Part shown: piece by piece, positions 33,578-38,711 of the stretch
Numbering within the stretch: position 1 is the stretch's first letter
How the letters are laid out: each line of letters begins with the position of its first letter
IMG/VR virus record: IMGVR_UViG_3300044712_001292
Location: 1 to 64,000 of that record
Direction: 5' to 3' (one strand)
Length of the DNA stretch: 64,000 bases
From: a virus
The notes under the pieces: model-generated
Told to the model about the DNA's origin: nothing
The model's input: only the letters and a program-made list of their open reading frames with translations
Databases searched by the model: none
Position numbers and translations under genes: made by a program

Positions 33578-33652
33578 GGGTGCCTAGCTCAGCGGTAGAG
33601 CACTTCGTCGACATCGAATAGGTCGCAGGTTCGATCCCTGCGGTACCCACCA
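33578..33652 (+). tRNA. tRNA-Val(GAC), with C33
   Basis: Acceptor GGGTGCC/GGTACCC, ACCA encoded, D-stem GCTC/GAGC, T-arm GCAGG TTCGATC CCTGC. Anticodon loop TCGACAT has C instead of the near-universal T at position 33, and the 27-43 pair is C-T. Confidence 0.8.
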
Positions 33653-33699
33653 TGACGGGGCTGATAACATCGGCCCGCCGGATCCGTAACCGGCCGTAC

Positions 33700-33776
33700 T
33701 GCGGGATGCCTGGAGGTAGTTCCAGATCGGTCTCATAAGCCGACATAGGCGTGTGCAAGTCACGCTCCCGCAACCA
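33700..33776 (+). tRNA. tRNA-Met(CAT)
   Basis: Acceptor TGCGGGA/TCCCGCA with ACCA; anticodon arm TCGGT CTCATAA GCCGA; D-stem CTGG/CCAG. T-loop is TGCAAGT. The only Met tRNA in the array; T1-A72 pairing does not tell initiator from elongator, and Ile-lysidine use is possible. Confidence 0.85.
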
Positions 33777-33921
33777 AGGTCCTCGCACCCGCCAGTGAGG
33801 CGTAAGCGATACAGGGGTCCGCTGTATCGGCCACGTTTTTCCGTCCACACCACCCGCCAGAGCACTGGCAACTAGCCAAGCCGTTGTCGAAGGACCGGAG
33901 GAGGGGTGGTGTGCGGTTCAT
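33777..33921 (+). ncRNA. Unassigned structured RNA segment between tRNA-Met and tRNA-His
   Basis: No tRNA or gene recognised. CGATACAG...CTGTATCG forms an 8-bp hairpin with a seven-base loop, and ACACCACCC (about 33846-33854) can pair with GGGTGGTGT (about 33904-33912) across a GCCAG/CTGGC hairpin. Possibly a processing element or decayed tRNA. Confidence 0.35.
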
Positions 33922-33997
33922 CCCCTCGTAGACCTAGGTATCGAGGTACAGGTCTGTGGCACCTGGAAGTCTGGTGAAAGTCCAGAACGGGGGACCA
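33922..33997 (+). tRNA. tRNA-His(GTG)
   Basis: Anticodon arm CAGGT CTGTGGC ACCTG is perfect; T-arm TCTGG TGAAAGT CCAGA has a non-canonical loop; ACCA encoded. Acceptor positions 6 and 7 mispair, and there is no clear G-1:C73 pair normally required by His-tRNA synthetase. Confidence 0.75.
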
Positions 33998-34105
33998 GTT
34001 TCAGCGCAATCTCAGCGCTTCTCGATCGGCGTGAGCTGTCGAGGACCTGCTCCGGGGAAGAGGGAGTGCTCTACGCCTCAGATAAGAACGAGGCGAGCGA
34101 TAGCT

Positions 34106-34180
34106 GGCTCTCTAGCATAAATAGTAATGCACCCGCCTGAAGAGCGGACAAACTCGGCGCGATACCGAGGGGAGCCACCA
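34106..34180 (+). tRNA. tRNA-Phe(GAA)
   Basis: Acceptor GGCTCTC/GGGAGCC, ACCA; anticodon loop CTGAAGA in CCCGC/GCGGA; D-loop AAATAGTA lacks GG; T-arm CTCGG CGCGATA CCGAG. Confidence 0.88.
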
Positions 34181-34203
34181 ATAGTGTCCACGTGGACACA
34201 GAT

Positions 34204-34277
34204 GGACCGTTAGGTTAAAAGTAAACCATCAGATTTTCACTCTGAAATCGACGGAGCGTTACCGTCACGGTCTACCA
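34204..34277 (+). tRNA. tRNA-Glu(TTC)
   Basis: Acceptor GGACCGT/ACGGTCT, ACCA; D-stem GGTT/AACC; anticodon arm TCAGA TTTTCAC TCTGA; T-loop AGCGTTA is non-canonical. Confidence 0.87.
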
Positions 34278-34280
34278 GAT

Positions 34281-34354
34281 GCACCTTTCTGTCAGTAGTA
34301 GGCACTCTCCCTCTCACGGAGAAAACGTCGGTGCGATCCCGACAAGGTGTACCA
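34281..34354 (+). tRNA. tRNA-Glu(CTC)
   Basis: Acceptor GCACCTT/AAGGTGT, ACCA; anticodon arm TCTCC CTCTCAC GGAGA; T-arm GTCGG TGCGATC CCGAC. Only three bases separate it from the previous tRNA. Confidence 0.88.
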
Positions 34355-34358
34355 GAAC

Positions 34359-34434
34359 GGTCCCAGGGGCAGCCAGTTTAAGCCGACACCCTGTCACGGT
34401 GTAGTACCGAGTGCGACTCTCGGTGGGATCGCCA
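34359..34434 (+). tRNA. tRNA-Asp(GTC)
   Basis: Acceptor GGTCCCA/TGGGATC, GCCA; anticodon arm ACACC CTGTCAC GGTGT; T-arm CCGAG TGCGACT CTCGG. Confidence 0.88.
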
Positions 34435-34438
34435 GAAT

Positions 34439-34513
34439 GCGCTAGCCACCGGTACAGTGGGGCTGGACCTGATAAGTCTGGACAGCACAGTTCGACTCTG
34501 TGATAGCGCACCA
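34439..34513 (+). tRNA. tRNA-Ile(GAT)
   Basis: Acceptor GCGCTA/TAGCGC (pair 7 weak), ACCA; anticodon arm TGGAC CTGATAA GTCTG; T-arm CACAG TTCGACT CTGTG. Confidence 0.85.
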
Positions 34514-34517
34514 GCAT

Positions 34518-34602
34518 TGGCAGGACGGATAACGGTTTTCCAGCACGCTGTTAACGTGCCGCACCGAAAGGTCACCTGGGGGTTCGAATCCCTCCCTGCC
34601 AG
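34518..34602 (+). tRNA. tRNA-Asn(GTT) with long variable arm, no CCA
   Basis: Acceptor TGGCAGG/CCTGCCA, G73, then ATT (CCA not encoded). Anticodon arm GCACG CTGTTAA CGTGC. An 18-base variable arm (ACC GAAA GGT hairpin) is unexpected for Asn, which is normally class I. Confidence 0.8.
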
Positions 34603-34607
34603 ATTAT

Positions 34608-34677
34608 GGGCTGTACAGTCATGGCGACGAAGAACCTCCGCAAGGTTCTTGATACGGTTCGATTCCGTAACGGTCCA
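34608..34677 (+). tRNA. tRNA-Ala(CGC), with C33, no CCA
   Basis: Acceptor GGGCTGT/ACGGTCC; anticodon loop TCCGCAA in GAACC/GGTTC has C at position 33; T-arm TACGG TTCGATT CCGTA. Short D-arm gives 70 bases. CCA is not encoded. Confidence 0.7.
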
Positions 34678-37710: not shown

Positions 37711-37910
37711 CATCTCTATGATGACGCTTATCCGAGTCATACTGTGAATACCGGCCTATCATCGCTGCTGTCGTCTTACCTCAGTTCCTATAGGAACACC
37801 GGGGACGGTGGCGCTTTGTAACCCGAACATGCTCGGAACGCGCCCTCGAACCCCGGATCCACAAGGTCCGGGGTTTTTCTTTTACAACGATATATGGTGG
37901 TTGCGATGAC
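37711..37910 (+). other. 200-base spacer with terminator
   Basis: No gene or tRNA is seen between the HNH gene and the Leu/Ser tRNA group apart from the terminator at 37849. Confidence 0.5.
37849..37882 (+). terminator. Terminator sharing the leader terminator's core
   Basis: AACCCCGGATCC (37849-37860) pairs with GGTCCGGGGTT (37865-37875) with one bulged T, followed by TTTCTTTT. The CCCCGGATC core is the same as in the terminator at 33441. The downstream Leu/Ser tRNAs would need read-through or their own promoter. Confidence 0.75.
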
Positions 37911-37995
37911 GGGGGCGTGGCTTCGTTGGGAACTGGCACACCTTGCCGGCTTAGAACCGGTAGCTTTGAGAGTTCGAGTCTCTCCGCCCCTACCA
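37911..37995 (+). tRNA. tRNA-Leu(TAG)
   Basis: Acceptor GGGGGCG/CGCCCCT, ACCA; anticodon arm GCCGG CTTAGAA CCGGT; T-arm GAGAG TTCGAGT CTCTC. 85 bases, with an extended D-side and a short variable region. Confidence 0.87.
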
Positions 37996-37998
37996 CAT

Positions 37999-38073
37999 AC
38001 CCGTGTAGCCCAATTGGCAGGAGGCGCTAGTGTGAGGCACTAGACAGTGCTGGTTCGAATCCAGTCGCGGGTA
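37999..38073 (+). tRNA. tRNA-Leu(GAG), no CCA
   Basis: Acceptor ACCCGTG/CGCGGGT, A73 then ATA; anticodon arm CTAGT GTGAGGC ACTAG; T-arm GCTGG TTCGAAT CCAGT. Short variable loop, unusual for Leu. Confidence 0.87.
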
Positions 38074-38079
38074 ATATAT

Positions 38080-38173
38080 GCACATCGTTCCGTACGGTAG
38101 TCTGTAAAACTATTGCGCACAAAAGCATGTACGGCGTACGCGCGGTTGGGTTAAACTCCCTCGATGTGCACCA
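38080..38173 (+). tRNA. tRNA-Tyr(GTA)
   Basis: Acceptor GCACATC/GATGTGC, ACCA; anticodon loop CTGTAAA closed by TAGT/ACTA; long variable region holding a GTAC GGC GTAC hairpin; T-loop TTAAACT. 94 bases, class II as expected for bacterial Tyr. Confidence 0.82.
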
Positions 38174-38178
38174 GATAA

Positions 38179-38255
38179 CGGCGTATGATGCAACTGGCGA
38201 CATACCTGCCTCAAAATCAGGGTCTATGCGGGTTCGACTCCCGCTGCGCCGACCA
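38179..38255 (+). tRNA. tRNA-Leu(CAA)
   Basis: Acceptor CGGCGTA/TGCGCCG, ACCA; anticodon loop CTCAAAA in CCTGC/TCAGG (one C-T mispair); T-arm GCGGG TTCGACT CCCGC. Short variable region. Confidence 0.85.
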
Positions 38256-38258
38256 CAA

Positions 38259-38347
38259 CCGGTAGTGGCGAAATCGGCTGAGACGCGACAGGCTTAAACC
38301 CTGCTACACGAGAAACATTGTGGGTTCGAGTCCCACCTACCGGACCA
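38259..38347 (+). tRNA. tRNA-Leu(TAA)
   Basis: Acceptor CCGGTAG/CTACCGG, ACCA; anticodon arm ACAGG CTTAAAC CCTGC; long variable arm; T-arm GTGGG TTCGAGT CCCAC. Confidence 0.92.
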
Positions 38348-38350
38348 TTT

Positions 38351-38441
38351 GGAAGGTATTGCGACTTTAGTAAGCGACCCGAGTTCGAACCTCGGTGACA
38401 CGTCTGACGGCGTGAGGGTGCGATCCCCTGACCTTCCTCCA
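38351..38441 (+). tRNA. tRNA-Ser(CGA)
   Basis: Acceptor GGAAGGT/ACCTTCC, TCCA; anticodon arm CCGAG TTCGAAC CTCGG; long variable arm; T-loop TGCGATC. Confidence 0.9.
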
Positions 38442-38444
38442 TAT

Positions 38445-38531
38445 GGAATATGAACCGACCAGGGTGTCGGCTCCGCTTGGAAAGCGGCTGGGCGCTTCGG
38501 CGCTGTGTTTCGAGTACACCGTATTCCGCCA
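38445..38531 (+). tRNA. tRNA-Ser(GGA)
   Basis: Acceptor GGAATAT/GTATTCC, GCCA; anticodon arm TCCGC TTGGAAA GCGGC; variable arm GGGCGC TTCG GCGCT. Confidence 0.9.
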
Positions 38532-38533
38532 TT

Positions 38534-38619
38534 GGAACGTAAATCAGCATGGTGCTGAACCTCGGTGCTAACGAGTGTGGCCCTACGGGGCTGAGGGTCG
38601 GGTCCTCTGCGTTCCGCCA
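38534..38619 (+). tRNA. tRNA-Ser(GCT)
   Basis: Acceptor GGAACGT/GCGTTCC, GCCA; anticodon loop GTGCTAA closed by CTCG/CGAG; variable arm GGCCC TAC GGGGC. Reads AGC/AGT. Confidence 0.9.
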
Positions 38620-38624
38620 CATAT

Positions 38625-38711
38625 GGATAGTGAACTGCTCGGGTGAGCAGCACCGGCTTGAAACCGGCAGGGCCCTACGGGGCTGGGGATCGAGACCTCC
38701 GCTATCCGCCA
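38625..38711 (+). tRNA. tRNA-Ser(TGA)
   Basis: Acceptor GGATAGT/GCTATCC, GCCA; anticodon arm ACCGG CTTGAAA CCGGC; variable arm GGGCCC TAC GGGGC as in the previous Ser tRNA. Last tRNA of the array; its last base abuts the stop codon of the convergent gene. Confidence 0.92.

Follow-up and report, generated by a model that had tools for sequence, protein, structure and literature searches.

Why phages carry their own transfer RNA (tRNA) genes is a question more than 50 years old, as one study states (PMC10264068). The same study describes phage tRNAs that evade tRNA-cleaving defences, and a vibriophage study, summarised in PMC13191261, has phage tRNAs replacing host tRNAs that are degraded in infection. 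Phage tRNAs amplified against tRNA-cleaving defences together with a homing endonuclease have also been reported (PMC13096335). Eight clusters of Morgado and Vicente (2019) hold all 20 isotypes (PMC6409571), and the array units of Mycobacterium are redundant with host anticodons and have been proposed to act against defences (PMC5966550, PMC12803027). The present analysis concerns a tRNA array at positions 33578-38711 of the window, a 64,000-nucleotide stretch that forms the first 64 kb of the 102,999-bp virus record IMGVR_UViG_3300044712_001292. This array extends the known clusters by a decoding cassette that is very dense, sorted and almost complete, and whose insertion site is cleanly empty in a relative. 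About a quarter of its tRNAs carry a variant of the tRNA elbow that recurs, in every isotype, in other phage arrays.

Composition of the tRNA array

The original prediction, made from the sequence alone, listed 41 tRNA genes in this interval, and its list by amino acid proved exact apart from two doubtful genes. ARAGORN detected 26 tRNAs within 33578-38711, plus one at 32243, and the Rfam model RF00005 added Phe at 34106, Gly at 35508 and 35587, and Leu-TAG at 37911. The Rfam tRNA-Sec model matches Ser-TGA at 38624 slightly under its cut-off (45.9 versus 47 bits, E 7e-7), and with this gene the support from standard programs extends to 31 of the 41 array tRNAs. A geometric cloverleaf scan placed 39 of the 41 at 48-79 points, above the best of six shuffles of the region (43.5), and contributed Met 33700, His 33923, Ile-GAT 34439, Trp 34887, Thr-CGT 36324, Ile-TAT 37064, Ser-GGA 38445 and Ser-GCT 38534. 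In the two exceptions, Arg-TCT (35929-35997) and Tyr-GTA (38079-38173), the acceptor and anticodon stems are good, but the D-arm is reduced to a stretch of only about 10-12 nt; neither was convincingly found by ARAGORN, Rfam or the cloverleaf scan, and both genes are doubtful. With 39-41 genes in 5.13 kb, or 8 tRNAs per kb, the array falls within the definition of a viral tRNA gene cluster (at least 15 tRNA genes at a density of at least 2 per kb) given in PMC6409571. The CCA end is encoded in at least 36 of the 41 tRNAs, and the genes retain their stems, T33, N73 and the identity elements for the synthetases.

All 20 amino acids are covered, as predicted, with Tyr represented solely by the doubtful Tyr-GTA. 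The 41 genes have 40 different anticodons, and the expectation that they could read essentially every sense codon held for 59 of 61 codons under strict wobble. The codons without a reader, CCU and CCC, account for 1.9% of codon use in a sample of the genes and would require expanded reading by Pro-TGG. The array is not a stand-alone decoding set, having a single, elongator-like Met-CAT with no clear initiator features and two defective-looking genes, and no synthetases were recognised among the phage proteins scanned.

The predicted adjacency of isoacceptors is pronounced: in 17 cases two adjacent genes serve the same amino acid, where 1.6 such pairs are expected and no more than 10 occurred in any of 200,000 shuffles. 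The Leu, Tyr and Ser genes are grouped at the end of the array, behind a terminator-like hairpin. Neighbouring isoacceptors are about 59% identical (49-70%), about as much as other pairs. Recent tandem duplication was therefore rejected as the source of the sorting, and the order must be old or result from ordered gains.

A variant elbow in window tRNAs and other arrays

The elbow of cytosolic tRNAs is held by the contacts G18-Psi55 (Psi, pseudouridine) and G19-C56, both textbook near-universals. In 11 window tRNAs, position 55 is G and not U, followed by C56; ten of these have AG and no GG in the D-loop and one is ambiguous. These 11 tRNAs lack the canonical elongator elbow (G18-U55 with G19-C56) and retain G19-C56. 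Three window tRNAs share the T-loop GGCAGCA. When IMG/VR was searched for this T-loop together with the D-loop word AGCTA and an encoded CCA, 54 stretches were obtained, 48 of which yielded good cloverleafs, two-thirds of them Glu-TTC. Applied to bacterial and archaeal genomes totalling 257 billion bases, the same pattern gave just 12 tRNA fits. Most of these lie in contigs that carry dense tRNA arrays, from Bradyrhizobium, Verrucomicrobiota and others, and one such Bradyrhizobium array is present in IMG/VR too. The replacement is concentrated in phage and related mobile arrays.

The elbow was then surveyed with a scan that gave no credit for T- or D-loop letters, applied to the arrays found by the pattern, the window and its relatives. 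Among 548 array tRNAs, non-redundant at 80% and drawn in the case of IMG/VR from arrays selected by a pattern that includes the D-loop, 336 were U55/GG, 8 U55/other, 182 G55/AG, 20 G55/GG and 2 G55/neither. U55/GG and G55/AG are nearly mutually exclusive, with 30 exceptions in the 548, and both classes occur in all 20 isotypes. The AG and the GG are about equally far from the end of the D-loop, and C56 and G19 are unchanged, so the second elbow pair is retained. Positions 54 and 58 co-vary as well, being mostly T-A with U55 and T-A, G-G or A-T with G55. In the G55 class the discriminator base is the expected one in 193 of 204 cases, G3:U70 is kept in 13 of 13 Ala tRNAs, and C1:G72 with A73 is kept in 7 of 7 Pro tRNAs.

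Searches unconditioned on the D-loop gave the same association: AG without GG was found in 19 of 22 tRNAs with the T-loop GGCAGCA and in 28 of 30 with TGCGAAT. Among the neighbours of the TGCGAAT tRNAs, seeds excluded, there were 112 U55/GG, 14 G55/AG, 2 G55/GG and 2 U55/AG. Of the arrays not selected by loop, the window has its ten G55/AG tRNAs and one ambiguous case, and the related genome G013 has nine G55/AG. Fisher values for the 18-55 linkage are very small and descriptive only, because related sequences are not independent events. With positions 18 and 55 assigned by sequence and not by structure, the data indicate an A18-G55 elbow class in which the two residues change together across many isotypes and sources. 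A helix between a D-loop GCU and the T-loop AGC of the GGCAGCA class is not general, as the unconditioned D-loops CAGTA and CAGCA contain no GCU.

Nothing relevant on a non-canonical elbow in phage tRNAs was found in the open-licence literature, and the compensated change is apparently undescribed so far. Steinberg and colleagues reportedly selected suppressor tRNAs with altered D/T contacts, which may already include such combinations; a 2004 paper of theirs is among the references of PMC7912444.

Microcystis phage Mwe-JY26 (PP438418), which carries both elbow classes, has four unannotated G55-type tRNAs (Pro, Thr, Asn and Glu; L299 1279, 3866, 4438 and 4973), and only Glu reaches the Rfam gathering score, the other three having no match at that score. 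These genes suggest that annotation misses some of the tRNAs that phages carry. In Yersinia phage vB_YenM_P778 (PP693300; L298 4898-9504), 25 canonical tRNAs were detected by ARAGORN, none of them annotated as tRNA.

Mobility of the array

The closest syntenic relative, G002, is collinear with the window's record along nearly its whole length. Between two conserved genes, one ending at 32208 and the other starting near 39661, the window has 7.4 kb with tRNAs, against about 36 bp in G002, where one open reading frame (ORF) ends near 34993 and the next starts at 35029. No tRNA was found anywhere in the 180 kb of G002, nor in another two relatives, which measure 172 and 216 kb. In other relatives, Rfam detected 15 (G011), 7 (G012) and 20 (G013) tRNAs, with 31 candidates in G013 by the cloverleaf scan, and the tRNAs of G011 and G012 are located far from the homologue of the flanking gene. 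Presence in the window and absence from G002 at one site between conserved genes is the pattern of a mobile cassette, and since tRNAs are missing both at the site and elsewhere in G002, the array is dispensable. An HNH endonuclease gene is embedded in the array (37165-37710), as in tRNA array units of the mycobacterial type, and its product is 38% identical to the HNH adjoining the Leu block of Virus Rctr197k. The empty site, the variable presence in relatives and the HNH gene all point to a cassette that has been gained and lost.

These results qualify the proposal that the array was selected as a functional decoding set and not captured at random. The near-complete set, the preserved identity elements and the far-from-random sorting agree with it; however, sorting by itself does not show that decoding was selected for, and the array lacks conservation, being absent from the closest syntenic relative.

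Organisation of the locus and source phage

Features are on the plus strand unless noted. The insertion site is flanked upstream by a conserved gene of no assigned function (31414-32208), 44% identical to its G002 homologue at 34196-34954, directly before the empty site. A terminator-like hairpin with a T-run (33437-33475) precedes the first tRNA block, which comprises Val(GAC) 33578-33652, Met(CAT) 33700-33776, His(GTG) 33923-33997 with the T-loop TGAAAGT, and Phe(GAA) 34106-34180, with G55 in Met and Phe. Glu(TTC) 34204-34277, Glu(CTC) 34281-34354 and Asp(GTC) 34359-34434, all three G55, are followed by Ile(GAT) 34439-34513, Asn(GTT) 34518-34602 with an unusual 18-nt variable arm, and Ala(CGC) 34608-34678, Ala(TGC) 34683-34757 and Ala(GGC) 34810-34883, each with G3:U70 and the last with G55. 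Trp(CCA) 34887-34960 has the T-loop GGCAGCA. After Gln(CTG) 35114-35189, Gln(TTG) 35195-35270, Pro(TGG) 35274-35350 and Cys(GCA) 35352-35425 come Gly(TCC) 35429-35504, Gly(GCC) 35508-35583 and Gly(TCC) 35587-35661, the last two again with GGCAGCA, and then Arg(ACG) 35664-35741, Arg(CCT) 35773-35848, Arg(CCG) 35850-35927 and the doubtful Arg(TCT).

A small ORF of 75 aa with two CxxC-like motifs and no family (36089-36316) separates these from Thr(CGT) 36324-36398, a G55 tRNA, Thr(TGT) 36468-36541, Thr(GGT) 36550-36623, Lys(TTT) 36626-36699, Lys(CTT) 36704-36777, Pro(CGG) 36783-36858, Val(TAC) 36935-37009 and Ile(TAT) 37064-37140, whose T-loop is CCGAGCA. The HNH gene (Pfam HNH_5 5e-14; PHROGs HNH 8e-26) and a strong terminator-like hairpin of 12 pairs with a T-run (37848-37880) lead to the final block: Leu(TAG) 37911-37995, Leu(GAG) 37998-38074, the doubtful Tyr(GTA), Leu(CAA) 38179-38255, Leu(TAA) 38259-38347, Ser(CGA) 38351-38441 with G55, Ser(GGA) 38445-38531, Ser(GCT) 38534-38619 and Ser(TGA) 38625-38711. 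Three Leu tRNAs (37911-38255) have short variable arms of 5-7 nt, against the long arm usual in bacteria. Short-arm Leu tRNAs also occur at L054 789-1534 and L084 134187-134513 (record coordinates), and the type accounts for 23 of 35 Leu tRNAs scored in IMG/VR arrays. Downstream, an ORF on the minus strand (38712-39953; Pfam DUF3431 5e-8), whose true start is probably downstream of the listed one, lies between the array and the conserved gene that flanks the site (39661-40272, start inferred), whose G002 homologue starts at 35029. In G002, an intein-like insertion (L056 about 16180-17160) that starts CFRGDTRVVA and ends ILTGN before C seems to interrupt the homologue of window 40309-42162.

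The original list of 41 genes stands, but it overlooked the unusual T- and D-loops and a 42nd tRNA-like gene at 32243-32320, found by ARAGORN, Rfam (36.6 bits) and the cloverleaf scan (55). The anticodon loop of this gene, TACTACC, would present CTA if in register and lacks U33, and its assignment as an amber-type tRNA is doubtful. Loops with CTA occur in tRNAs of three related phages, namely at this locus, at G011 119696-119771 (L084, minus strand) and at G013 38214-38289 (L086), the latter two with a clean TTCTAAA. Amber recoding, which such tRNAs might suggest, was rejected because TAG is the stop of 23 of 99 called genes in the window's record.

Genes for multi-subunit RNA polymerase (RNAP)-like proteins of the beta/beta' type lie at 48320-53113 and 56432-58309, and the proteins belong to a phage lineage with few named relatives. 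Sheath-like, baseplate J-like and major-head-like proteins are also encoded, so the source is a large phage with a contractile tail that supplies a multi-subunit RNA polymerase of its own; it is little known. Most of its proteins have no family match. Named relatives are distant, an RNAP-like protein being 26% identical to that of Salmonella phage Arash and a structural protein 37% identical to that of Virus Rctr197k; closer relatives are found in IMG/VR (RNAP protein up to 60% and head-like protein 71-82% identity). No relative was returned when the RNAP-like or the NUDIX protein served as a single query, whereas searches with an alignment and with the head protein did find some. The NUDIX domain belongs to a 999-aa protein (28418-31417) encoded two genes upstream of the array, and a glycosyltransferase family 41 (OGT-like) domain is encoded at record positions 70644-72158 (L003 6644-8158). 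The tRNA-His has A73 and lacks G-1, and A73 is also found in His tRNAs of the Bradyrhizobium arrays. We take A73 without G-1 to be typical of Alphaproteobacteria, which is a lead to the phage host and not a test.

Interpretation

The explanation we favour, with about even confidence, is that the array is a mobile, near-complete phage tRNA set that replaces host tRNAs and in which an elbow swap alters a surface recognised by enzymes. Array transcripts would be cut into tRNAs during infection, charged by host synthetases, and used as substitutes for host tRNAs, which the host may degrade or cut or which may disappear together with its transcription. Such replacement would need a set for every amino acid and not only for rare codons, and the complete set seems to fit it better than codon tuning. 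The explanation is supported by the set and its order, a nearly identical isoacceptor set in the distant relative Rctr197k, the empty site and variable presence in relatives, the HNH gene and the elbow covariation. The compensated swap from G18-U55 to A18-G55 would keep the L-shape and change the surface by which host tRNA-directed enzymes, such as defence nucleases and modification or processing enzymes, recognise host tRNAs. A tRNA with G55 cannot receive pseudouridine 55 and offers no target to TruB, the enzyme that makes it; likewise TrmA, the enzyme for m5U54, has no target where residue 54 is G or A. Escape from enzymes that read the elbow is our preferred guess for the advantage gained.

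More broadly, it is plausible, at somewhat less than an even chance, that evolution in phages and related mobile arrays has produced, in each of the 20 isotypes, another functional elbow besides the canonical one, namely A18-G55, often with G54-G58 or A54-U58. Such tRNAs would translate, would escape host enzymes that recognise G18-Psi55, and would have been overlooked partly because some of them are missed by gene finders and annotations. A coordinated natural replacement of this contact in every isotype offers a ready set of variants for asking why phages carry tRNAs.

Several observations weigh against the favoured explanation. The closest relative lives without tRNA genes, so any need for them must be conditional, and Arg-TCT and Tyr-GTA look defective. 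The swap is absent from many large arrays, no G55 with C56 having been found among the scored tRNAs of DSS3_MAL1, RcXuper, G007, Pumpernickel, RHph_Y65, Arash, YenM_P778 and Rctr197k. We know of no defence reported to require G18-Psi55.

Codon compensation also retains some probability. Under it, the tRNAs would raise the supply for codons used more heavily in the phage than in its host, and the elbow variants would have no special role. The phage has a third-position G+C fraction of 0.73 over 20,329 codons, with an exact-match anticodon for 74% of codon use, and C34 partners (CTC, CTG, CTT, CGG, CGT, CGC, CGA, CCG and CAA) stand beside U34 tRNAs, as expected for G-ending codons. Across phages, moreover, many tRNAs go with larger composition differences (PMC13015707). 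However, the array serves all amino acids and almost all codon boxes, common ones included, so the set exceeds what compensation needs; CTG (828 uses), the top Leu codon lacking an exact anticodon, was left without one; and the elbow change is unrelated to codons. We regard compensation as unlikely.

Selfish or neutral accumulation, in which homing endonucleases spread tRNA blocks and transfer maintains the set more than use does, would account for the HNH genes inside the array and beside the Rctr197k Leu block, for relatives whose arrays are absent or at other loci, and for the conservation of HNH in mycobacterial arrays (PMC12803027). It is rendered improbable by the low redundancy, the sorting, the identity elements and the compensated elbows, which point to purifying selection. 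Decay, with odd tRNAs as pseudogenes and T-loop changes as random damage, is very improbable as a general account: coordinated changes at 55, 18 and 54-58 recur in hundreds of tRNAs whose stems, CCA and identity elements are intact, and they turn up in unrelated contigs. This covariation largely refutes decay for the G55 class; decay stands for two or three odd genes, given the truncated D-arms of Arg-TCT and Tyr-GTA and the disturbed anticodon loop at 32243-32320.

Comparison with known systems

The viral tRNA gene clusters of PMC6409571 are likewise dense blocks in phages of the 100-200 kb class. They hold 15-37 tRNAs, compared with 39-41 sorted in 5.1 kb here, and the accessible sections of that paper do not discuss loop variants. 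The mycobacterial array units of phages and plasmids have 26-27 tRNAs for 19-20 amino acids and an embedded HNH (PMC5966550, PMC12803027). In the anti-defence systems of van den Berg 2023 (PMC10264068) and SegB/Septu (PMC13096335), tRNAs act as replacements or cleavage-resistant versions, and in SegB/Septu a homing endonuclease lies beside the tRNAs, as here. The changes described there affect the anticodon loop or gene dosage, whereas those reported here affect the elbow, span all isotypes and are known from sequence.

Virus Rctr197k (KX853510), from a methane-oxidising enrichment, has about 43 annotated tRNAs whose anticodons nearly match those of the array. It also resembles the array in having Leu tRNAs with short arms and, adjoining its Leu genes, a related HNH. 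It differs in having two separate blocks, in mostly lacking an encoded CCA, and in showing the canonical U55/GG elbow in 33 of 33 tRNAs scored. Microbacterium phage Pumpernickel also has a large amino-acid-sorted region (Ser x4, Lys x2, Gly x2, Thr x3, Val x2 and Asn x2) that contains HNH and homing endonuclease genes; its spacing is looser, genes for an RtcB-like ligase and an ADP-ribosyltransferase lie nearby, and only canonical elbows were found in 25 scored tRNAs. Large sorted phage arrays are thus already known from Rctr197k, Pumpernickel and the mycobacterial units, and the present array joins them.

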